Shown here: positions 8,598-30,262 of the stretch, piece by piece
Position numbering within the stretch: position 1 is the stretch's first letter
Layout of the letters: each line of letters starts with the position of its first letter
Assembly: GCF_913063105.1 (NCBI RefSeq)
Contig: NZ_CAJXYQ010000006.1
Coordinates: forward strand, 1-64,000
DNA: 64,000 nt
Source of the DNA: an uncultured Draconibacterium sp.
Lineage (GTDB): Bacteria > Bacteroidota > Bacteroidia > Bacteroidales > Prolixibacteraceae
Direction: 5' to 3'
The notes under the pieces: generated by a model
Databases searched by the model: none
The model's input: only the letters and a program-made list of their open reading frames with translations
What the model was told of the DNA's origin: nothing
Program-made: the position numbers and the translations under genes

Positions 8598-8615
8598 AAT
8601 GAATATTTATTCAAT
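8598..8615. promoter_or_regulatory. ARG box (ArgR operator), perfect consensus match
   Basis: AATGAATATTTATTCAAT fits every position of the E. coli-type ARG box WNTGAATWWWWATTCANW. It overlaps the expected transcription start and the first codons of the longest argR reading frame. Binding here should block argR transcription, and perhaps the following arg genes (inference from position and family knowledge). Confidence 0.75.
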
Positions 8616-9099
8616 GAAGAATAAAATACAACGACAACTTGAAATCCGAAAAATAATTCAAAAAGGCAATGTACACAGCCAGGATGAATTATTGGTTGAA
8701 TTAAAGCGCCGGGGCTTCGACTTAACGCAGGCCACCCTGTCGCGCGATTTAAAAGTGCTACAGGTTGCAAAAGTACCACATCCGGTTAAAGGCTATGTTT
8801 ATACCATACCCGAAAACGGACTAACAGAAAAGCATAGTGCAGAACACATTAACCGCATTAATTACCTGGCCGACGGATTTCAGGATTTACAGTTTTCGGG
8901 CAATCTGGCCGTATTAAAAACGGTACCCGGATATGCCAGCAGCATTGCTGCGGTGATAGACACCGCCAGCCCCTGGGAGATTTTGGGAACAGTTGCCGGA
9001 GACGACACGATTTTAATTATTCAAAGGGAAGGAATATCGAAAAATGATTTGACCGAGGCATTATTTAAAATTATGCCAAAGCTAAAAGACAAATTGTAG
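8614..9099 (+). CDS. argR: Arginine repressor
   Basis: Arginine-responsive hexameric DNA-binding regulator. The N-terminal winged helix holds the recognition helix LTQATLSRDLKVL. The C-terminal arginine-binding and oligomerisation domain holds the hallmark GTVAGDDTILII. I place the start at the second in-frame ATG (8614), giving 161 residues that begin MKNKIQRQLEIRKII, as is usual for ArgR. The ATG at 8599 would add five residues and would put the ARG box inside the coding region. The GNAT gene follows after 8 bases, so argR probably leads the arginine operon and represses itself. Confidence 0.93.
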   Translation: MKNKIQRQLEIRKIIQKGNVHSQDELLVELKRRGFDLTQATLSRDLKVLQVAKVPHPVKGYVYTIPENGLTEKHSAEHINRINYLADGFQDLQFSGNLAVLKTVPGYASSIAAVIDTASPWEILGTVAGDDTILIIQREGISKNDLTEALFKIMPKLKDKL

Positions 9100-9107
9100 A
9101 TCGAAGG

Positions 9108-9770
9108 ATGAAGAGCTTAAATAACATCAAAGTATTAATTGCCGACGAAAATCACCTGAAATTCATCGACGATATAAACGATGCCATCGATAGTGCATCG
9201 AAACAAAGAGGTACGGGTATTGCACGCCGAACCTTTGAATACCTTGCTGATAAAATGAAGCAGGGGAAAGCAATAATTGCGCTGGAAGAAGGTGAAGTGT
9301 TCGCAGGTTTTTGCTACATAGAAACCTGGCAGGAAAAAGGCTTCGTGGCCAACTCGGGGCTTATTGTTGCCGAAGATTACCGCGGAATAGGACTGGCAAA
9401 AGCCATTAAAAAGAAAGCCTTTGAGCTTTCGCGTAAGAAATACCCCAACTCCAAAATTTTTGGCTTGACCACCGGACTGGCCGTAATGAAAATCAATCAC
9501 GAGTTGGGTTATCGTCCTGTTACCTTCTCGGAGTTAACCCTGGATGATCATTTTTGGAAAGGATGCACCGGCTGTATAAACCACGACATTCTGGAACGAA
9601 CCGGCAGAACAAAATGCCTTTGCACCGGAATGTTATACGACCCGGCGTGGGAAAAACCAACTTATACGAATGGTAATGGCATTAGAAAAAGAAGTTTACT
9701 TGATTTGATACCGAAGCGAAAGCCGGGGGTAGCAAAAAAGAAAAACAAACTATTAAAGAAAAACAAGTAG
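9108..9770 (+). CDS. GNAT-family acyltransferase, candidate N-acyl(succinyl)glutamate synthase
   Basis: A 220-residue acyl-CoA transferase-like protein. The GNAT acyl-CoA loop is DYRGIGLAKAIKKKA at 90-104, and NHELGYRPV at about 130-138 is the usual C-terminal GNAT strand. After the fold comes a Cys cluster, Cys153-x2-Cys156-x13-Cys170-x-Cys172, which could bind zinc. A very basic tail (about 203-220) ends the protein. Its place between argR and argG, with a succinyl-type argF' downstream and no argA or argJ in the window, makes it a candidate for acylating glutamate in the first arginine step. That function is inferred from context. The alternative is a regulatory or amino-acid N-acetyltransferase. 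Confidence 0.7.
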   Translation: MKSLNNIKVLIADENHLKFIDDINDAIDSASKQRGTGIARRTFEYLADKMKQGKAIIALEEGEVFAGFCYIETWQEKGFVANSGLIVAEDYRGIGLAKAIKKKAFELSRKKYPNSKIFGLTTGLAVMKINHELGYRPVTFSELTLDDHFWKGCTGCINHDILERTGRTKCLCTGMLYDPAWEKPTYTNGNGIRKRSLLDLIPKRKPGVAKKKNKLLKKNK

Positions 9771-9838
9771 AGTGACGGTAAATTATTCAACGGACAGCTA
9801 CAGACTTAACTTGAATAGTATAAGGCCGTCACTCTTTT
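9769..9838 (+). terminator. Long stem-loop between GNAT gene and argG, possible attenuator
   Basis: AGAGTGACGG (9769-9778) pairs perfectly with CCGTCACTCT (9826-9835), followed by TTT. An inner pairing ATTATTCAA / TTGAATA extends the stem. The left arm begins on the GNAT stop codon. It may reduce transcription into argG, protect the upstream mRNA, or be a mobile palindromic repeat. The loop carries a 17-mer found again at 21808-21824. Confidence 0.5.
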
Positions 9839-9852
9839 AAAGATATTTAGAC

Positions 9853-11046
9853 ATGAGTAAAAAATTGGTACTGGCATTTAGCGGTGGTTTAGATACCTCG
9901 TTTTGTGTAAAATACTTAAAGGAAGAAAAAGGATATGATGTTTACACAGCAATTGCCAACACAGGAGGTTTCTCTGACGAGGAACTAATAGAGATTGAAA
10001 AACGGGCACTGGCACTTGGAGCCGTTGAACACATTACACTTGATGTTACCAACGAATACTATGAAAAATGCATTCGCTACATGGTTTACGGAAATGTATT
10101 GCGAAATAACACCTACCCCATTTCGGTAAGTTCAGAACGCGCATTTCAGGCCATTGCCATTATTGAGTACGCCAAAGAAATTGATGCAAAATATATTGCA
10201 CACGGCAGCACAGGCGCCGGAAACGACCAGATTCGCTTCGACCTTACTTTCCAGGTTTTGGCACCTGAGATTGAAATAATAACGCCTACCCGCGATATGC
10301 TTTTAACCCGCCAGTACGAAATCGACTACCTAAAAAAATATGGTTTTGAGGCCGATTTTACCAAAATGGAATACTCCATTAACCAGGGGCTTTGGGGCAC
10401 CAGCGTTGGCGGAAAAGAAACGCTAACCACCAACAAAAATCTGCCCGAAGAAGCTTATCCAAGCCAGCTGAAAGCCACAGGCGAACAAACCATCGAATTG
10501 GGTTTTGAAAAAGGAGAACTGGTATCGCTCGACGGAGAATTTTACGAAAACGGTCCCGAAGTAATTCGTGCGCTGGAGACTGTAGCATCAAAATACGCCA
10601 TTGGGCGCGACACCCACGTTGGAGATACCATTATTGGTATTAAAGGCCGTGTTGGTTTTGAAGCTGCCGCCCCGCTGATTACCATTAAAGCACATCACCT
10701 ACTGGAAAAACATACCTTAACCAAGTGGCAGGCCTACTGGAAAGAACAACTGAGTAACTGGTACGGCATGTTTTTACACGAAGCCATGTACCAGGAACCG
10801 GTTATGCGAAACATCGAAGATTTTCTGGAATCGACCCAGGAAAATGTTACCGGAAAAGTAATCGTAAAACTTAAACCTTACCACTTTGAACTGGTTGGTA
10901 TTGAATCGGAACACGACCTGATGAACTCGGGATTTGGAGAGTACGGCGAAACCGTTGAAGCATGGACAGCCGACGACGTTAAAGGGTTTACCAAAATCTT
11001 ATCGAACTCCTTAAAAATCTACAACAAGGTAAATAACAAATTATAG
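9853..11046 (+). CDS. argG: Argininosuccinate synthase
   Basis: Joins citrulline and aspartate with ATP to give argininosuccinate. The PP-loop ATP site is AFSGGLDTS at about residues 8-16. The sequence GSTGAGNDQIRFD, typical of the citrulline/aspartate site, is present near 118-130. The 397-residue length is normal. argC starts one base after its stop, so the two are tightly coupled. In a succinyl pathway it uses free citrulline formed after a deacylase step whose gene is not in this window. Confidence 0.97.
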   Translation: MSKKLVLAFSGGLDTSFCVKYLKEEKGYDVYTAIANTGGFSDEELIEIEKRALALGAVEHITLDVTNEYYEKCIRYMVYGNVLRNNTYPISVSSERAFQAIAIIEYAKEIDAKYIAHGSTGAGNDQIRFDLTFQVLAPEIEIITPTRDMLLTRQYEIDYLKKYGFEADFTKMEYSINQGLWGTSVGGKETLTTNKNLPEEAYPSQLKATGEQTIELGFEKGELVSLDGEFYENGPEVIRALETVASKYAIGRDTHVGDTIIGIKGRVGFEAAAPLITIKAHHLLEKHTLTKWQAYWKEQLSNWYGMFLHEAMYQEPVMRNIEDFLESTQENVTGKVIVKLKPYHFELVGIESEHDLMNSGFGEYGETVEAWTADDVKGFTKILSNSLKIYNKVNNKL

Positions 11047-11047
11047 G

Positions 11048-12016
11048 ATGATTAAAGTTGGAATTATAGGAGGAGCCGGATACACTGCCGGAGAGCTGTT
11101 GAGAATTTTACTGAATCATCCGCAGGTTGAAATTGGCTTTATACAAAGCACGAGCAATGCCGGCAACCTGATTTCGGATGTGCACATTGATTTGTTGGGC
11201 GAAACGGAAATCACGTTCACCGATCAGATGCCTTTTGATGAGGTTGATGTTATTTTCCTTTGTATGGGACATGGCAAATCGATAGAATTTGTGGAAAAAC
11301 ACAATTTTCCTAAATATTTAAAAATTATAGATTTAAGCCACGACTTCAGGCTAAAAAGAGCCGGTAACGACTTTGTGTATGGCTTGCCCGAACTAAACCG
11401 CGAAGAAATTGAATCGTCAGAACGCATTGCCAACCCGGGCTGTTTTGCCACCGGAATTCAGCTGGCACTGTTGCCATTGGCTGCCAACAACTTATTGCAG
11501 GACGAAATTCATGTACAAGCAATAACAGGCTCAACCGGTGCCGGACAAAAACCAACCGCAACATCGCATTTTAGCTGGCGTAGCAGCAATGTTTCGGCTT
11601 ACAAAATTTTCGAGCACCAGCACGAGGGCGAAATCATCCAAAGCCTTACACAATTGCAAGCTGGTTTTGAAAAAGACTTCAACTTTGTGCCCATTCGTGG
11701 AAACCACACAAGAGGTATTTTTGTGGCTTGTTATACAAAATTTGAAGGCTCGCTTGAAGAAGCCAACGAAATTTATAAAGAGTATTACGCCGGCCACCCC
11801 TTTGTTTTTATAAGCGATAAAAACCCGGGAGTAAAACAAGTGGTAAACACCAACAAGGGCGTACTTTACCTGGAAAAACACGGCACCAAACTGGTTATAA
11901 TCAGTTTAACCGACAATTTAATAAAAGGTGCATCCGGACAGGCAGTTCAAAACATGAACCTGATGTTTGGGTTAGACGAAAAAGCCGGACTCAACTTAAA
12001 ACCGGTAGCTTTTTAA
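11048..12016 (+). CDS. argC: N-acyl-gamma-glutamyl-phosphate reductase
   Basis: NADPH-dependent reduction of the N-acylglutamyl phosphate to the semialdehyde. The nucleotide-binding start is VGIIGGAGYTAGELL (residues 4-18) and the catalytic Cys132 sits in NPGCFATG. The length of 322 residues is normal. It follows argG by one base and precedes argD. Whether the acyl group is acetyl or succinyl cannot be read from this protein, but the argF' type suggests succinyl. Confidence 0.96.
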   Translation: MIKVGIIGGAGYTAGELLRILLNHPQVEIGFIQSTSNAGNLISDVHIDLLGETEITFTDQMPFDEVDVIFLCMGHGKSIEFVEKHNFPKYLKIIDLSHDFRLKRAGNDFVYGLPELNREEIESSERIANPGCFATGIQLALLPLAANNLLQDEIHVQAITGSTGAGQKPTATSHFSWRSSNVSAYKIFEHQHEGEIIQSLTQLQAGFEKDFNFVPIRGNHTRGIFVACYTKFEGSLEEANEIYKEYYAGHPFVFISDKNPGVKQVVNTNKGVLYLEKHGTKLVIISLTDNLIKGASGQAVQNMNLMFGLDEKAGLNLKPVAF

Positions 12017-12089: not shown

Positions 12090-13232
12090 TTGAATATGGA
12101 ACTATTTAACGTATATCCACTTTTCGACATTACCCCGGTAAAAGCCGAGGGATGTTACGTTTGGGATGCCGACGGAAAGAAATATCTTGACCTTTATGGC
12201 GGGCATGCAGTAATCTCAATCGGACACAGTCACCCCTGCTATGTAAAAAAAATTACTCAGCAGCTTCAGCAAATTGGCTTTTACTCTAACTCAGTACAAA
12301 ATCCGCTACAGACTGAATTAGCTGATAAACTAGGCAAAATTTCAGGATGTGAAGACTACCAGCTTTTCTTGTGCAACTCGGGAGCCGAAGCCAACGAAAA
12401 TGCACTGAAACTTGCATCTTTTATTACTGGTAAAAAGAAAATAATCAGTTATAAAAAAGGCTTTCACGGTCGTACATCGGCAGCCGTTGCCATTACCGAT
12501 AATCCGAAAATTATTGCTCCTGTTAACGAAACAGATAATGCTGTAATTCTTCCGTTTAACGACATAAAGGCTACCGAAGATGTTTTGAAACAAGGTGATG
12601 TTGCAGCAGTAATTGTTGAGGGAATTCAGGGAATTGGAGGAATTTACGTACCCGACACCGAGTTCCTTACCAAGCTAAAACAACTGACAGAAAAATATGT
12701 AGCAGTTCTTATTCTCGACGAAATACAATCGGGCTACGGACGAAGTGGCAAGTTCTTCGCTTACCAGCATACCGATATTAAACCCGACATTGTAACAATG
12801 GCAAAAGGAATGGGTAACGGATTTCCTATTGGAGGCGTGCTGATTCAGCCGGAAATTGAGCCGTGGTTTGGCATGCTGGGAACCACTTTTGGCGGAAATC
12901 ACCTGGCCTGTGCTGCTGCCATTGCAGTTCTGGACGTAATGAAAGACGAAAAGCTGGTGGAGAATGCAGAGTCAGTAGGAAATTACCTGATGGATAAACT
13001 GGCGGAGATAGATGCAGAGTTTGAGATCAGAGGAGAAGGATTAATGATCGGTCTGGAATTTAAACAACCAATTGCTGATATTCGCCGGAAACTGTTGTTC
13101 GATTACGGAATTTTCACCGGTGTTTCAGGACAAAATATCATACGGTTGCTGCCTCCGTTAAGTCTTACAAAAACACAGGCCGACGTATTTTTAACGGCGT
13201 TTGCAGAAGTACTTGATACCGTTGTTGAATAA
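12090..13232 (+). CDS. argD: Acylornithine aminotransferase
   Basis: PLP-dependent class III aminotransferase. It converts N-acylglutamate semialdehyde to N-acylornithine with glutamate as donor. The PLP lysine is Lys239 in TMAKGMGNGFPIGG. NSGAEANENALK (96-107) forms the cofactor phosphate loop and LDEIQSGYGRSG (209-220) is the aspartate loop. It is 380 residues long, rather short for the family but normal for Bacteroidota. A 73-base gap with a palindromic repeat separates it from argC. proC follows 38 bases later. Confidence 0.95.
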   Translation: MNMELFNVYPLFDITPVKAEGCYVWDADGKKYLDLYGGHAVISIGHSHPCYVKKITQQLQQIGFYSNSVQNPLQTELADKLGKISGCEDYQLFLCNSGAEANENALKLASFITGKKKIISYKKGFHGRTSAAVAITDNPKIIAPVNETDNAVILPFNDIKATEDVLKQGDVAAVIVEGIQGIGGIYVPDTEFLTKLKQLTEKYVAVLILDEIQSGYGRSGKFFAYQHTDIKPDIVTMAKGMGNGFPIGGVLIQPEIEPWFGMLGTTFGGNHLACAAAIAVLDVMKDEKLVENAESVGNYLMDKLAEIDAEFEIRGEGLMIGLEFKQPIADIRRKLLFDYGIFTGVSGQNIIRLLPPLSLTKTQADVFLTAFAEVLDTVVE

Positions 13233-16672: not shown

Positions 16673-17620
16673 ATGAAAAATTTCACATCCGTAAAAGATA
16701 TTCCGGGCATTGAAAAAGCCCTTGCAACCGCTTTTGAAGTAAAAAAGAACAAATTTGGATTTCAGCACCTTGGCAAAAACAAAACCATGGTACTGGTATT
16801 TTTTAACTCAAGCTTGCGCACCCGTTTAAGCACTCAAAAAGCAGCCATGAATATGGGCATGAATACCATGGTGATGAATGTAAACGAAGACAGCTGGCAG
16901 CTTGAGTCGGAAATGGGCGTGATTATGGATGGGAAAAATGCCGAACACCTGCGTGAAGCCATCCCGGTAATTGGAAAATATTGCGACGTTATTGGCGTAC
17001 GTGCTTTTGCCAAATTTGAAAAACGCGAAGACGACTATTCAGAGAAAATACTGAGCCAGTTTGTAGAGTTTGCAGGTGTTCCGGTAGTAAGTATGGAAGG
17101 AGCTACCCGCCATCCGCTGCAAAGTTTTGCCGATCTGCTTACCATTGAAGAATACAAAAAAGTGGAAAAACCAAAAGTGGTGTTAACCTGGGCTCCTCAC
17201 CCTCGTGCATTGCCTCAGGCAGTGGCCAACTCGTTTGTTGAGTGGATGCGCGAAACAGATTATGAACTGGTAGTTACTCACCCAAAAGGATACGAACTGG
17301 CACCCGAATTTATGGGCGATGTAAAAGTAGAATACGACCAGCAAAAAGCATTTGAAGGAGCCGATTTTATTTACGCAAAAAACTGGGCCTCATATTCCGA
17401 TTACGGGCAGATTCTTTCGAAAGACATGAGCTGGACCGTTGATGAAGCAAAAATGGCACTGACAAATGATGCCAGATTTATGCACTGTCTGCCGGTACGA
17501 AGAAACATGGTAGTAAGCGATGCAGTTATCGACAGCCCGAATTCAATTGTGGTAGAACAAGCATACAACCGCGAGGTTACGGCACAGGCAGTATTGAAAA
17601 TGATTCTTGAAAATGCCTAA
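16673..17620 (+). CDS. argF': N-succinylornithine carbamoyltransferase
   Basis: Transfers the carbamoyl group of carbamoyl phosphate to N-acylornithine. It has 315 residues. The carbamoyl-phosphate motif is SSLRTR (46-51), and MHCLPVRRNM lies near 269-278. The protein matches the B. fragilis succinylornithine enzyme in layout from its first residues. Residue 90, in MDGKNAEH, is Ala. The Xanthomonas acetylornithine enzyme has Glu there (Glu92) and B. fragilis has Pro90. Published swaps of Glu92 to Pro, Ser, Val or Ala gave succinyl specificity, so Ala supports the succinyl substrate. A 7-base inverted repeat (16623-16629/16650-16656) lies in the leader. Confidence 0.92.
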   Translation: MKNFTSVKDIPGIEKALATAFEVKKNKFGFQHLGKNKTMVLVFFNSSLRTRLSTQKAAMNMGMNTMVMNVNEDSWQLESEMGVIMDGKNAEHLREAIPVIGKYCDVIGVRAFAKFEKREDDYSEKILSQFVEFAGVPVVSMEGATRHPLQSFADLLTIEEYKKVEKPKVVLTWAPHPRALPQAVANSFVEWMRETDYELVVTHPKGYELAPEFMGDVKVEYDQQKAFEGADFIYAKNWASYSDYGQILSKDMSWTVDEAKMALTNDARFMHCLPVRRNMVVSDAVIDSPNSIVVEQAYNREVTAQAVLKMILENA

Positions 17621-17634: not shown

Positions 17635-17668
17635 CGCCCTCGCATTATTGCAAGCAATAAAAAGAAAT

Positions 17669-18400
17669 ATGACCAAAAAAATAGAAATAATACCTGCCAT
17701 CGACCTGATTGACGCCAAATGCGTGCGGCTTTCGCAAGGCGATTACAACCAGAAAACGGTGTACAACGAAAACCCGCTGGAAGTAGCAAAAATGTTTGAA
17801 GAAGCCGGAATTACACGTTTGCACCTGGTTGATTTAGATGGTGCCAAAGCCAAACACATTGTAAACTACAAAGTGCTGGAAACCATCGCCACAAAAACCA
17901 ACCTGGTAATTGATTTCGGGGGCGGTTTAAAATCAGACAAAGACCTTGAAATAGCTTTCAGCTCGGGAGCTGCCATGGTTACCGGCGGAAGTATTGCTGT
18001 AAAAGAAAAGGATACTTTTCTGAGCTGGCTGGAGAAATTTGGCTGCGATAAAATAATTCTGGGCGCCGATGCCAAAGACGGCAAAGTGGCAGTTAGTGGC
18101 TGGTTGGAAACTACAGAATTAGAAGTAATCGATTTTATTTCAAGTTTTCAGAAAAACGGCATCAGCAAAGTAATTTCGACCGATATTAGCCGCGACGGCA
18201 TGCTTAGCGGCCCGTCGTTTGAATTGTATGCCGACATTATGAACACACTGCCAACAGTGGAAATTATTGCCAGCGGTGGAATTGCTACCATGAGCGACAT
18301 ATTAAAATTAGATGAAATGGGAGTGCCGGGCGTTATTACCGGAAAAGCCATTTATGAAAATCGCATAACTTTGAAGGAAATTGAAAAGTTTATTGCGTAA
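17669..18400 (+). CDS. hisA: ProFAR isomerase
   Basis: Amadori isomerisation of ProFAR to PRFAR in histidine synthesis. It is a half-repeat TIM barrel with [15 protein letters not shown] at the N-terminus, the catalytic Asp in that strand, and the phosphate loops FGGGLKS and [12 protein letters not shown] chose the ATG at 17669 (243 residues). A TTG at 17648 would add seven residues that HisA proteins lack. It is separated from argF' by a promoter-like element. hisG, hisD, hisC, hisB and hisH are not in the window, so the pathway genes are split. Confidence 0.95.
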
Positions 18401-18412
18401 CAGCTACGCTGT

Positions 18413-18487
18413 CAATTCGAAACCTGAGGAACGAAGCTGAGAAAACTGTGGCATTAACAACAGGTTTCTCCTCGCATACTCGTCGAA
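18413..18487. repeat. Imperfect inverted repeat between hisA and hisF
   Basis: GAAACCTG (18419-18426) and CAGGTTTC (18461-18468) are exact reverse complements, with partial outer matches (GAGGA/TCCTC, TTCGA/TCGAA). The wording of the right part, ending CGTCGAAATGA, resembles dispersed intergenic repeats found in many genomes (recalled, not searched). Confidence 0.55.
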
Positions 18488-18507
18488 ATGATAAAACAAA
18501 ATAAAAT

Positions 18508-19263
18508 ATGCTTGCAAAACGAATTATACCATGCCTCGATATCCGCAACGGACAAACCGTTAAGGGAATCAACTTTGTTGACATCAAAGAAGTAGGCGAC
18601 CCGGTTGAACTGGGAGCAAAATATGCAGCCGAAGGTGCCGACGAACTTTGCTTTTTGGATATTACTGCCACACACGAAGGTCGGAAAACTTTTGTAGAAC
18701 TGGTAAAACGTATTGCAGCACACATTAACATTCCGTTTACCGTTGGAGGTGGCATTAGCGAAATTGGTGACGCAGAAAAGCTGCTGGCTGCCGGAGCTGA
18801 CAAAATATCCATAAACTCGTCGGCAGTTCGAAACCCAAAGTTAATAGACGAGCTGGCCCTGAACTTCGGAAGCCAGTTTGTGGTAGTGGCCATTGATGCA
18901 CGCGGCGACGAAAACCAACACTGGACGGTAACCGTTAATGGTGGTCGCATTCCAACCGACAAAGAACTGTTTTCGTGGGCAAAAGAAGCCGAAGACCGTG
19001 GTGCCGGCGAAATACTTTTTACATCAATGAACCACGACGGCACCAAGAATGGTTTTGCCAACAAAGAGCTGGCGAAAATGGCCGATATGCTAAAAATACC
19101 AATTATCGCATCGGGAGGAGCAGGCGCTAAAGACCATTTTGTAGATGTTTTTACCAAAGGTAAAGCCGATGCCGGGCTGGCGGCCAGTATTTTTCATTAC
19201 AACGAAATCCCGATCCCGGTTCTTAAGAAATACTTAAAAGAACAGGGCATTGTTGTTCGTTAG
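18508..19263 (+). CDS. hisF: Imidazole glycerol phosphate synthase cyclase subunit
   Basis: With HisH it converts PRFAR and ammonia to IGP and AICAR. It is a TIM barrel of 251 residues starting [20 protein letters not shown], which contains the catalytic Asp11. The second catalytic Asp is in [13 protein letters not shown] near 172-183. [20 protein letters not shown] is the phosphate-binding half. HisH, its glutaminase partner, must be encoded outside this window. Confidence 0.95.
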
Positions 19264-19346
19264 TCAATCAAAATAGTAAATTCGCAGCGCTAAAGCAGAA
19301 TTAAAAATTACGCCGGACCAAAGGCTCCGGAATTCATTCAACAGAT

Positions 19347-19964
19347 ATGAGACAGCTTACAGATATTTCGCAAATCGATTTCGAAAAAACCAATGGCCTT
19401 ATTCCTGCTATCATTCAGGATGCCGAAACACAAAATGTTTTAATGCTTGGTTACATGAACGATGAAGCTTTTTCGAAAACACAGGAAACCGGAAAAGTGA
19501 CCTTTTTTAGCCGCACCAAAAACCGTTTGTGGACCAAAGGCGAAGAATCGGGAAATTTTCTGAACCTTGTTTCAACAGCCATTGATTGCGATAACGACAC
19601 GCTGCTGATAAAAGTAAATCCGGTTGGCCCTGTTTGCCACAAAGGCGACGATACTTGTTTTGAAGAAAGCAACACCGCAAACGACATCCAGTTTCTGAGC
19701 TACCTCCAGGATTTTATCGACAAACGTAAAGCTGAAATGCCTGAAGGCTCATACACCACTTCGCTTTTTACAAAAGGTACACGAAAAATTACACAGAAGG
19801 TTGGCGAAGAAGCCGTTGAAACCATTATTGGAGCCATGGCCAACGACGATGAAAACTTTATGTACGAGGCCGGCGACCTGTTGTACCACCTTATAGTTTT
19901 GCTAACACACAAAGGTTACCGGATTGAAGATGTAGTACGCGAGCTTAAGAAAAGGCACAAGTAA
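19347..19964 (+). CDS. hisIE: Bifunctional PR-AMP cyclohydrolase / PR-ATP pyrophosphatase
   Basis: Fusion enzyme of 205 residues for two early histidine steps. The N-terminal cyclohydrolase domain (about 1-110) has MLGYMNDEAF, a metal-binding CDNDTLL near 77 and the paired Cys-His in GPVCHKGDDTCF. The C-terminal pyrophosphatase domain (about 112-205) has the MazG-like helices EEAVETIIGAMANDDENFMYEAGDLLYHLIV (described here by its EEAVE and EAGD motifs). It ends the hisA-hisF-hisIE run. A small GCCGGA/TCCGG hairpin is visible in its leader near 19312-19331. Confidence 0.95.
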   Translation: MRQLTDISQIDFEKTNGLIPAIIQDAETQNVLMLGYMNDEAFSKTQETGKVTFFSRTKNRLWTKGEESGNFLNLVSTAIDCDNDTLLIKVNPVGPVCHKGDDTCFEESNTANDIQFLSYLQDFIDKRKAEMPEGSYTTSLFTKGTRKITQKVGEEAVETIIGAMANDDENFMYEAGDLLYHLIVLLTHKGYRIEDVVRELKKRHK

Positions 19965-21800: not shown

Positions 21801-21837
21801 ACAAACAGACAGCTACAGACTTAAAAGCTGAAGAAGA

Positions 21838-23052
21838 TTAGTTATAGGCACTCTCACCATGTTCGTAAACATCGAGTCCTTCTTCTTCAATGCGCTTAGA
21901 GACGCGCAATCCTATGGTTGCTTTTATAACCTTAAAGAGAATTAATCCTAATCCGAATGCCCATACAAATACAGCACCAACGCCAATTGCCTGAACACCT
22001 AATAAGCTTGCTCCACCGCCGTAGAATAAACCACCATCGGTAGCAAATAAACCTACTGCCAATGTTCCCCATGCACCGTTTACACCGTGTACTGAGATTG
22101 CACCAACAGGGTCGTCTACTTTTAATTTCTGGTCGATAAATTCAACACTGAAAACAAGTATAATACCGGCAATAATACCAATAATTAAAGCGCCGCCAGG
22201 GCTAACAATGTCACAACCGGCAGTAATACCTACCAACCCGGCCAATGCACCGTTTAATGCCAACGATAATGAAGGACGCTTATATTTCATCCATGAAGTA
22301 AACAGGGCAGCCATTGCACCACCGGCAGCAGCCAGGTTGGTTGTTAGAGCAATGTGTGCAATTGCAACAGCATTGTCGTTACCGGCAGCTCCCAACTGAG
22401 ATCCTGGGTTAAAACCGAACCATCCGAACCAAAGGATAAATACACCTAAGGCACCTAATACAAGGTTGTGACCCGGTATCGCTTTTGCTTTACCATTAAC
22501 ATATTTACCCATACGAGGTCCGAGAACGATAGCACCAGCTAAACCAACCCATGCACCAACAGAGTGAACAATTGTAGATCCTGCAAAATCAAGGAATCCA
22601 AGTTGATCAAGCCAACCGCCACCCCATTTCCAGTGACCAGAAATTGGATAGATAAATACGGTAATTACGATTGTAAAAATAATATACGCGCTAAATTTTG
22701 TACGCTCAGCAACTGCTCCTGATACAATTGTTGCGGCAGTAGCAGCAAACACAGTCTGGAACATTAAATCGGTTTTGTTGGCATAGTCGCCAATACCGTT
22801 ATCGTTAATAAACAAACTTGGCATTCCGATAAATCCGCCAATTGATTCGCCATACATTAAAGTATAACCAATTACCCAGAACAAAATGGCACCAACCGAA
22901 AAGTCTACCAGGTTTTTCGTTAAAATGTTAGCCGCATTCTTTTGTCTGGTAAAACCGGCTTCCACCATTGCAAATCCTGGCTGCATAAACATCACCAAAA
23001 AGGTGGCAACCAAAACCCATATATTGTTAATCGACATCGAAAGTTCTTCCAT
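21838..23052 (-). CDS. amtB: Ammonium transporter
   Basis: Inner-membrane Amt/Rh channel for ammonium, 404 residues, about 11 membrane helices. Family hallmarks are QPGFAMVEAGFTRQKN near 25-40, FQTVFAATAATIVSGAVAERTKF-type sequence near 95-115, and the His pair positions in DFAGSTIVHSVGAW and DDPVGAISVHGVNGAWG. Unlike E. coli AmtB, no cleaved signal peptide is evident. It lies 23 bases after glnB, the standard glnK-amtB pairing in which the P-II protein plugs the channel under nitrogen sufficiency. It ends at a clear terminator. Confidence 0.96.
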   Translation of the reverse strand: MEELSMSINNIWVLVATFLVMFMQPGFAMVEAGFTRQKNAANILTKNLVDFSVGAILFWVIGYTLMYGESIGGFIGMPSLFINDNGIGDYANKTDLMFQTVFAATAATIVSGAVAERTKFSAYIIFTIVITVFIYPISGHWKWGGGWLDQLGFLDFAGSTIVHSVGAWVGLAGAIVLGPRMGKYVNGKAKAIPGHNLVLGALGVFILWFGWFGFNPGSQLGAAGNDNAVAIAHIALTTNLAAAGGAMAALFTSWMKYKRPSLSLALNGALAGLVGITAGCDIVSPGGALIIGIIAGIILVFSVEFIDQKLKVDDPVGAISVHGVNGAWGTLAVGLFATDGGLFYGGGASLLGVQAIGVGAVFVWAFGLGLILFKVIKATIGLRVSKRIEEEGLDVYEHGESAYN

Positions 23053-28930: not shown

Positions 28931-30262
28931 ATGAAACTCTGGGATAAAGGAACACCTGTAAACAAGGCAATCGAAGAATTTACTGTTGGCAAAGACCGCG
29001 AGCTGGATTTATACCTGGCAACGCACGATATTTTAGGATCGATGGCACATGTTACCATGCTCGAATCGGTTGGCCTTATTGAAAAAGATGAACTACCCGC
29101 ATTACTGGCAGAACTTAAAAACCTATACAAAATAGCCGAAGACGGAGATTTCAGCATCGACGAAGGAGTGGAAGATGTGCACTCGCAGGTCGAATTTTTA
29201 CTTACGGAAAAACTGGGTGATCTGGGCAAAAAAATACATAGCGGGCGCTCGCGCAACGACCAGGTTTTGCTCGACCTCAAGCTTTTTACCCGCGACGCGA
29301 TTCGCGAAATTGCAGAAACAACAGCCTTGCTTATCGACGTTTTATTAGCGCGTGCAGCCGAAACTAAAGATATTTTAATGCCGGGCTATACCCACCTTCA
29401 GGTAGCCATGCCATCGTCGTTCGGTCTCTGGTTTAGCGCCTACGCCGAAAGCTTATCCGACGACCTGGAGATTTTGCAGTCTGCATACAAAATCACCAAC
29501 CAGAATCCATTGGGCTCAGCAGCCGGCTATGGCTCATCATTTCCACTAAACAGGCAACTAACAACACACCTGCTGGGTTTCGAAAACATGAATTACAACG
29601 TAGTGTATGCACAAATGGGAAGAGGCAAGGTGGAAAAAATTGTTTCATTCGCCTTAGCTAACCTGGCAGCAACACTTTCAAAGCTGGCCTACGACGTATG
29701 TTTATTCATGAGCCAGAACTTTAATTTTGTAAGCCTGCCAACCGCATTTACTACAGGCTCGAGCATTATGCCGCACAAAAAAAATCCCGATGTATTTGAA
29801 CTAACACGCGCACGCTGCAATAAACTTCAGGGGGTTCCGGCACAAATTGGTTTAATAATTAATAATTTACCAAGTGGCTATTTCCGCGACCTTCAGATGG
29901 TAAAAGAGGTTTTTCTGCCTTCTTTTAAAGAAATGAACGACTGCCTGAACATTGTAAATCTGGCAATCGATAAAATGGAAGTCAACAATACCATTTTAAA
30001 CGACAATAAATACGACTATCTGTTTAGTGTGGAAGAAGTGAACAAGCTTGTTCTTCAGGGCATCCCTTTTCGTGAAGCCTATAAACAAATTGGCGAACAA
30101 ATTGAAAACGGCAACTTTTCGCCGGAAAAGAGCGTAAACCATAGCCACGAAGGGAGCATCGGGAATTTATGTCTGGATAGTATTACGAAAAAGAAAGAAA
30201 AAATCATGGACAAATTTCTATTTAACAAAATAGATGAAGCCAAAAGTTCCTTACTGAACTAA
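28931..30262 (+). CDS. argH: Argininosuccinate lyase
   Basis: Splits argininosuccinate into arginine and fumarate, the last arginine step. A 443-residue fumarase/aspartase superfamily enzyme. HSGRSRNDQ lies at 103-111. The superfamily signature GSSIMPHKKNP (276-286) contains the catalytic serine loop. It stands 11 kb away from the main arg block, behind the glycosyltransferase genes, with its own promoter and a structured leader. gltB follows after a separate promoter. Confidence 0.96.
   Translation: MKLWDKGTPVNKAIEEFTVGKDRELDLYLATHDILGSMAHVTMLESVGLIEKDELPALLAELKNLYKIAEDGDFSIDEGVEDVHSQVEFLLTEKLGDLGKKIHSGRSRNDQVLLDLKLFTRDAIREIAETTALLIDVLLARAAETKDILMPGYTHLQVAMPSSFGLWFSAYAESLSDDLEILQSAYKITNQNPLGSAAGYGSSFPLNRQLTTHLLGFENMNYNVVYAQMGRGKVEKIVSFALANLAATLSKLAYDVCLFMSQNFNFVSLPTAFTTGSSIMPHKKNPDVFELTRARCNKLQGVPAQIGLIINNLPSGYFRDLQMVKEVFLPSFKEMNDCLNIVNLAIDKMEVNNTILNDNKYDYLFSVEEVNKLVLQGIPFREAYKQIGEQIENGNFSPEKSVNHSHEGSIGNLCLDSITKKKEKIMDKFLFNKIDEAKSSLLN

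Follow-up and report, generated by a model that had tools for sequence, protein, structure and literature searches.

We begin by considering the gene at 9108 to 9770 of the window, by which we mean the whole stretch of 64,000 nucleotides that was analysed. The gene lies on the forward strand, starts 8 nt 3' of the argR stop (9099) and is followed by further genes of arginine synthesis. The genes and features needed for its interpretation are the following.

8599..9099, + strand: argR, arginine repressor of 166 aa (both Pfam domains, Arg_repressor N and C; TIGR01529 narrowly misses its cut-off at E 2.4e-37)
9108..9770, + strand: GNAT-fold glutamate N-acyltransferase of the BT3761/ArgA2 family, most likely N-succinylglutamate synthase, 220 aa (Pfam, family alignments, VIA-align, co-occurrence)
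9381..9398, + strand: acyl-CoA (pyrophosphate) loop R92-G-I-G-L-A97 (R92 in every one of 62 aligned rows, G95 and A97 in at least 90% of them)
9564..9623, + strand: four-cysteine module C153-x2-C156-x13-C170-x-C172 (identical spacing in 133/133 sequences; pLDDT 89-95 per ten-residue block, residues 141-180)
9663..9767, + strand: basic C-terminal tail, sign and length not conserved (pLDDT 59-82 per ten-residue block from residue 181)
9769..9836, + strand: intergenic hairpin between the GNAT stop and argG, stem GAGTGACGG/CCGTCACTC (-24.5 kcal/mol, z -4.4)
9853..11046, + strand: argG, argininosuccinate synthase (best NCBIfam model for argininosuccinate synthase at E 1.6e-90; none of these models reaches its curated cut-off)
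11048..12016, + strand: argC, N-acyl-gamma-glutamyl-phosphate reductase (TIGR01850 above cut-off)
12090..13232, + strand: argD, N-acylornithine aminotransferase (TIGR00707 E 1.7e-113, below curated cut-off)
16673..17620, + strand: N-succinylornithine carbamoyltransferase with A90, H176, R178, P181, R276 and V280 (best solved matches 1js1, 2fg6 and 2g7m, E 1.9e-146 or better; residues)
28931..30262, + strand: argH, argininosuccinate lyase (TIGR00838 above cut-off)

The preliminary description placed a GNAT protein with a clear acyl-CoA loop between argR and argG, and this is what the locus contains: the open reading frame is present with its 220-aa translation, the genes on its two sides are named by family models, and the loop is R92-G-I-G-L-A97. 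The GNAT assignment is made by Pfam (PF00583, E 1.6e-6, above the gathering score), and the Pfam matches of the protein are to acetyltransferase families of the GNAT type only. None of the NCBIfam models scores over its cut-off against the protein, and TIGR01890, the model of the classical ArgA, is absent from its NCBIfam matches. The RefSeq-type records label members of the family "GNAT family N-acetyltransferase".

The three ORFs between argD and the transcarbamylase gene are taken to be proC, proB and proA, and the solved structures that match the transcarbamylase best (1js1, 2fg6, 2g7m) are those of the B. fragilis succinyl enzyme. The ArgB kinase is encoded on a contig different from that of the window, where it adjoins an ORF that we take to be hisH. 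The histidine genes are split as well: ORFs taken as hisA, hisF and hisIE lie 3' of the transcarbamylase gene (17648-19964 of the window), and ORFs taken as hisG, hisD, hisC, hisB and hisH lie near argB on the other contig (8418-16764 of locus L044), mixed with arginine genes.

Surroundings of the GNAT gene

The hairpin between the GNAT stop and argG recurs in the 14 same-genus loci picked for comparison; the loop word CAGCTACA is common to them, and at two pairs of the stem both partners have changed. The covariation in these 14 picked loci is only modestly above that of shuffles, and in more distant loci of the genus the loop word is changed or missing. The hairpin could be an attenuator or a terminator of the arg operon. 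A known structured RNA in this place was considered and rejected, the Rfam search of the GNAT-argG intergenic region giving no match near a gathering score. The 17-mer GACAGCTACAGACTTAA is found in the hairpin loop (9793-9809) and once more at 21808-21824, beside a GC-rich hairpin and just downstream of a minus-strand ORF (21838-23052) that is presumably an ammonium transporter. The 17-mer may be a small repeat or a binding site shared by two nitrogen-related loci.

The gene order argR-GNAT-argG-argC-argD-proC is also found in B. ihuae and B. finegoldii. Among the same-order or named loci, argG is present in the fetched stretch of 85 out of 93; the 8 without it include several in which a contig end cuts the locus. 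Among 20 loci from other classes, argG adjoins the GNAT gene or is fused to it in 9, and in 11 no arg gene was found in the stretch of 13-15 kb around the GNAT; the unlinked GNAT genes of ten of these form one clade (support 0.95). The labels of two loci call for a remark. A contig labelled uncultured Thalassobius (L101), the name of an alphaproteobacterial genus, has an arginine cluster of the kind typical of Bacteroidota and is probably mislabelled or part of a mixed metagenome bin. The other (L194, NZ_OY725909.1, B. finegoldii) is labelled plasmid 7; its arginine and rhamnose genes look chromosomal, and it is probably a mislabelled piece of the chromosome.

In three genomes, belonging to three genera of one family, the GNAT and ArgG are encoded by a single ORF of 588-630 codons from stop to stop, as listed below.

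L127, 5857-7749, - strand: four-Cys GNAT fused to argininosuccinate synthase
L128, 7201-9006, - strand: four-Cys GNAT fused to argininosuccinate synthase
L129, 5736-7502, - strand: four-Cys GNAT fused to argininosuccinate synthase

In these fusions a linker of 17-19 residues joins the last Cys to the nucleotide loop of ArgG, with no Met past the last strand of the GNAT, and the C-terminal part of one of them was confirmed as argininosuccinate synthase. The three fusions form one clade (support 0.92), which makes a single fusion event likely; in a fourth genome of the same family (L130) the GNAT is not fused. The fusion ties the GNAT protein physically to arginine synthesis. Glutamate acyltransferases fused to ArgH and to ArgC have been described (accessible parts of PMC1382215 and PMC4490483), and none fused to ArgG was recognised in a literature search made largely without subscription journals.

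Predicted fold and the four-cysteine module

The AlphaFold2 model built from 62 aligned rows has a mean pLDDT of 89.6, with values by tens of 89-95 over residues 141-180, the region for which the model built from 16 rows has 76-91. The predicted order of the elements is that of a GNAT, and in the model the Cys module, containing helices 147-155 and 159-164, comes after strand 136-138 and before the last strand, 173-177. VIA-align ranks the N-acetylglutamate synthase 2r8v first (Z 17.8, rmsd 2.8, 153 aligned) and 5yge, the M. tuberculosis ArgA, second (Z 16.6, rmsd 2.5, 145 aligned), the latter tied with many other GNATs; rows 2 to 50 for the first model run from Z 16.6 to 14.3. With the second model, made from the deeper alignment, the first two ranks are the same and the lead is less than 1 Z unit; its ranks 1 to 10 lie between Z 17.1 and 16.0 and include N-terminal acetyltransferases. 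By Foldseek E-value, PA2271 (9cr5) comes first and 2r8v second. A PDB sequence search up to E 1 gives no solved structure of the four-Cys GNAT family, the matches being to other GNATs only, of which PA4794 is the best. As far as the models go, the fold alone does not give the acceptor of the protein.

The pattern Cys153-x2-Cys156-x13-Cys170-x-Cys172 had been singled out from the start, and the four residues are positioned exactly as claimed. The spacing C-x2-C-x13-C-x-C is kept without an insertion or deletion in all 133 sequences (a count that includes the window protein and some duplicates, with 127 distinct cores), and the four Cys are invariant in both alignments (16/16 and 62/62 rows), in which the relatives share 44-75% identity with the window protein. 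Cys69, the sole further Cys, is mostly conserved (105 of 113 rows). The relatives were taken from the same genus, from the same order, from named GTDB species (the best 80 contigs out of at least 581) and from 20 hand-picked genomes of other Bacteroidota classes. The cut at 80 contigs leaves the most distant relatives under-sampled. Of the 174 GNAT carriers considered below, the survey covers the 20 picked genomes, and a partial match in G004, further same-genus matches and weak second matches lie outside it. Judged on these alignments, the conservation of the pattern is far beyond chance. We infer that the four Cys hold a putative structural metal ion, most likely zinc.

The basic tail, which the preliminary description had named together with the Cys cluster, is borne out only in part. 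It is present in the window protein, whose residues 186-220 include 13 K/R and 1 D/E, and it is not a feature of the family. The tail is net negative in 28 of 130 relatives, the part past the last strand measures from 3 to 66 residues, and in the three ArgG-fused forms the ArgG part follows the last Cys after 17-19 residues. Because its sign and length vary in this way across the family, the tail was dropped as a functional element.

In a GNAT, the loop between the last two strands is part of the acceptor pocket. Because this loop shapes the pocket, we propose that the four Cys, which sit there in a helical insertion, would bind one metal ion, most likely zinc, and that the zinc would stiffen the acceptor loop, so that glutamate is positioned for the attack on succinyl-CoA.

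Alternatively, the four Cys may form a site, iron-sulphur or disulphide, that responds to oxygen or redox state and controls entry into the arginine pathway, and not a passive zinc site. A GNAT-fold enzyme to which one can turn here is ATE1, which has a strictly conserved four-Cys zinc site required for stability, a site said to be reported with either iron or zinc (PMC10115844, in its accessible part). No row named ATE1 is among the 50 fold matches shown (Foldseek, and VIA-align with both models), which excludes nothing. A committing enzyme is the expected control point of a pathway, and the model places the cluster ahead of the last GNAT strand, a region that borders the acceptor site in GNATs. 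The cluster is, however, invariant in genera that we take to be aerobic (Gillisia and Pricia; loci L087, L106, L110 and L123) as well as in genera that we take to be anaerobic (Bacteroides and Odoribacter; loci L078 and L094), which makes a labile cluster less likely. We hold a redox-responsive site to be unlikely. The idea can be extended to a putative metal or redox switch in the glutamate-binding loop that decides whether the pathway is entered, in an enzyme that one lineage has joined covalently to argininosuccinate synthase. This proposal we regard as quite unlikely; if it were true, metal or redox state would take the place of arginine binding to the kinase domain, as in the classical ArgA, as the gate.

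We keep a structural zinc as the preferred reading of the module. A literature search made largely without subscription journals found no description of the four-Cys module of the BT3761/ArgA2 family in the accessible parts of the papers, and in those parts the literature found on BT3761 does not mention the Cys cluster.

Partner enzymes and the acyl donor

We turn our attention to the reaction. The idea that this family contains succinylglutamate synthases is not new, as GapMind named it in 2020, giving BT3761 of B. thetaiotaomicron a role in arginine biosynthesis, "probably N-succinylglutamate synthase" (PMC7311316, accessible part). According to the accessible parts of the sources, BT3761 is required for growth without arginine (PMC7311316; PMC9026213), and a 2022 study names it ArgA2 and finds it in all 194 gut Bacteroidetes genomes where ArgA was missed (PMC9026213). 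A review of 2015 gives the succinylating gene as still unidentified at that time (PMC4490483, accessible part). In the accessible part of PMC9765024, a figure legend uses "BT3761" for the anchor of a 3-ketoglycoside hydrolase family, which is at odds with GapMind and with the 2022 study and which we take as a slip; BT3761 is absent from the main text of PMC5764234. The literature, in its accessible parts, yielded neither published kinetics nor a purified Bacteroidota homologue of the BT3761/ArgA2 family. The window protein is 62% identical to its homologue in B. ihuae (L094) over residues 5-189 and 61% identical to that in B. finegoldii over residues 5-179, and it is placed in the family by its homology to these two proteins, its position in the arginine operon and its co-occurrence with the transcarbamylase.

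An argA or argJ gene had been found missing from the window, and the absence holds for the genome too, which is 91% complete, so that about 9% may be missing: the ArgJ model (PF01960) has 0 matches, and the ArgA model (TIGR01890) matches below its cut-off and only at the ArgB kinase. A different succinylglutamate synthase elsewhere in the genome had been named in advance as a finding that would speak against the assignment, and no other glutamate N-acyltransferase of the ArgA or ArgJ type was found in this assembly.

The co-occurrence of these genes was followed in a sample of 392 Bacteroidota genomes, of which 174 have the GNAT, 136 have ArgJ and 206 have a transcarbamylase like that of the window (E 1e-30 or better). 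One genome (G179), with a GNAT match at E 1.6e-4 taken as unrelated, is left out of the carrier counts. Such a transcarbamylase is present in all 174 GNAT carriers, in 154 as a close form and in 20 as a divergent form, the division being our own, placed at a gap between E 3e-84 and 7e-71. The knotted type of all 206 transcarbamylases is taken from the score, with the residues checked in 20 sampled genomes. The GNAT accompanies the close form in 154 of 156 genomes, the two exceptions with a close succinyl-type transcarbamylase and no GNAT being G413 and G450. Among the 50 genomes with the divergent form alone, 20 have the GNAT and 30 do not; the divergent form is not linked to the GNAT. ArgJ is found in 3 of the 174 carriers (G286, G439 and G442, which have both) versus 133 of the 218 non-carriers, and in none of the 20 carriers picked from other classes. 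The Fisher values of 3e-41 for ArgJ and 2e-83 for the close transcarbamylase ignore shared ancestry and are to be read only as "very strong". With the divergent transcarbamylase and neither GNAT nor ArgJ in 26 genomes, another acylglutamate route may exist in the phylum. By class, the GNAT is present in 100 of the 108 genomes of the window's class and in 74 of the 284 of other classes (the same sample, G179 excluded).

The next question is which acyl group is transferred, and for this the transcarbamylase is informative. N-acetylornithine carbamoyltransferase (AOTCase) is marked by Glu92, Asn185 and Lys302, where the succinyl type has A/S/P/V/Q, P and V/I/E, respectively, and in the B. fragilis enzyme H176, R178 and R278 hold the succinyl group (PMC4581275, accessible part). 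The window transcarbamylase has A90, P181 and V280 at the three specificity positions, all of the succinyl type, and H176, R178 and R276 at the places of the residues that hold the succinyl group. It passes the published three-residue test, and the succinyl type claimed for it in the preliminary description is confirmed at this level. The residues were then compared across 46 rows, which come down to 38 distinct transcarbamylase genes once the eight rows that repeat a gene from a second locus are merged. Position 90 carries one of the listed residues in 34 genes, Thr in 3, Gly in 1 and Glu in 0; the equivalent of Asn185 is Pro in 36 and Ala in 1 (L171) of the 37 genes with data, and Asn in 0; the third position is V/I/E in 35 and Lys in 1 of the 36 with data. 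The transcarbamylase is 38-47% identical to that of the window in 10 of the 20 sampled other-class genomes, and one such divergent enzyme was checked: by overall score the X. campestris AOTCase is the better match, and the three specificity residues are of the succinyl type. The idea that the divergent enzymes are acetyl-type, with the donor split within the family, was dropped because they carry succinyl-type residues, save for the one Ala (L171).

It is possible to read the GNAT as an N-acetylglutamate synthase, with acetyl-CoA as the donor and a transcarbamylase that acts on N-acetylornithine here. The window transcarbamylase does score over the NCBIfam cut-off for "N-acetylornithine carbamoyltransferase" as well, but the AOTCase markers are missing, with Glu at 90 in 0/38 and Asn at the Asn185 equivalent in 0/37, and according to GapMind BT3717 is misannotated in Swiss-Prot as an acetylornithine carbamoyltransferase, while for B. 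fragilis it cites an ArgB that is an N-succinylglutamate kinase (PMC7311316, accessible part). The best VIA-align matches of the GNAT are acetyl-CoA enzymes. Cabys_1732 of Caldithrix abyssi, which is more than 50% identical to BT3761 (PMC7311316), is the first gene of argAGCBEH and is called an N-acetylglutamate synthase on unpublished data (PMC5317091, both sources in their accessible parts), so the family may use acetyl-CoA or both donors. Taking these points together, we consider acetyl-CoA as the donor in the window very doubtful. That the GNAT is a protein or arginine-related N-acetyltransferase merely located in the operon, with some other enzyme acylating glutamate, is highly improbable: N-terminal acetyltransferases (Ard1) are almost equally close in fold and no arg gene is found near the GNAT in 11 of the 20 other-class genomes, but all 174 carriers have a transcarbamylase like that of the window and ArgJ is nearly excluded, the genetics of BT3761 show an arginine requirement (in the accessible parts of the sources above), the GNAT-ArgG fusion exists, and the genome itself has no ArgA over cut-off and no ArgJ.

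Our main reading, to which we give a probability of roughly 0.8, is that the GNAT is the committing enzyme of arginine synthesis, transferring an acyl group, most likely succinyl, from acyl-CoA to glutamate, with a four-Cys site that likely holds a structural zinc. The succinyl donor we infer from the partner enzymes. In the proposed scheme the stand-alone GNAT would acylate the alpha-amino group of L-glutamate, most likely with succinyl-CoA as the donor; ArgB, ArgC and ArgD would convert the N-succinylglutamate to N-succinylornithine, and this would be used by the window's own N-succinylornithine carbamoyltransferase. The role proposed at the outset, that of first enzyme of a succinylated arginine pathway, agrees with the published BT3761/ArgA2 assignment and with the genome tests given above. 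Arginine synthesis would then start with this enzyme in a large part of a phylum that is prominent in the gut and in the environment. What is added here is the invariance of the Cys module, the ArgG fusion, and a test of the published proposal at the level of residues and of the phylum. The invariant module and the fusion make a vague annotation testable, with respect to acyl-CoA, metal and control without the arginine-binding kinase domain of ArgA.

Relation to known systems

The window GNAT can be compared with BT3761 (Q8A1A5, ArgA2), a member of the proposed N-succinylglutamate synthase family with the same operon order in Bacteroides relatives; the kinship is judged via two Bacteroides homologues, at 61-62% identity. 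Cabys_1732, a homologue of BT3761, leads an arg operon and is reported to be of the N-acetyl type, the comparison being by description only, from the accessible parts of its sources. ATE1 shares the GNAT fold and four conserved Cys and is a precedent for a zinc site in the window GNAT, whereas its CX2CXnCC lies in an N-terminal substrate domain and the Cys of the window GNAT precede the last GNAT strand; no homology is claimed.

Among the N-acetylglutamate synthases (NAGS), the short form (S-NAGS), M. tuberculosis ArgA Rv2747 (5yge, 5yo2), is likewise a stand-alone GNAT domain and is close in fold (Z 16.6 and 16.4), but it is only 12-14% identical to the window GNAT and did not come up in the PDB sequence searches, which went up to E 1. 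The classical bimodular NAGS, represented by N. gonorrhoeae ArgA (2r8v), provides the best VIA-align match on its C-terminal part, at 18% identity, and differs in that the window GNAT is without the amino-acid-kinase domain. Finally, the H-NAGS of Moritella, argH(A), resembles the fused forms in joining a glutamate acyltransferase to a late arginine enzyme (accessible parts of PMC1382215 and PMC4490483), whereas the fusions described here join a four-Cys GNAT to ArgG, with the GNAT at the N-terminus.
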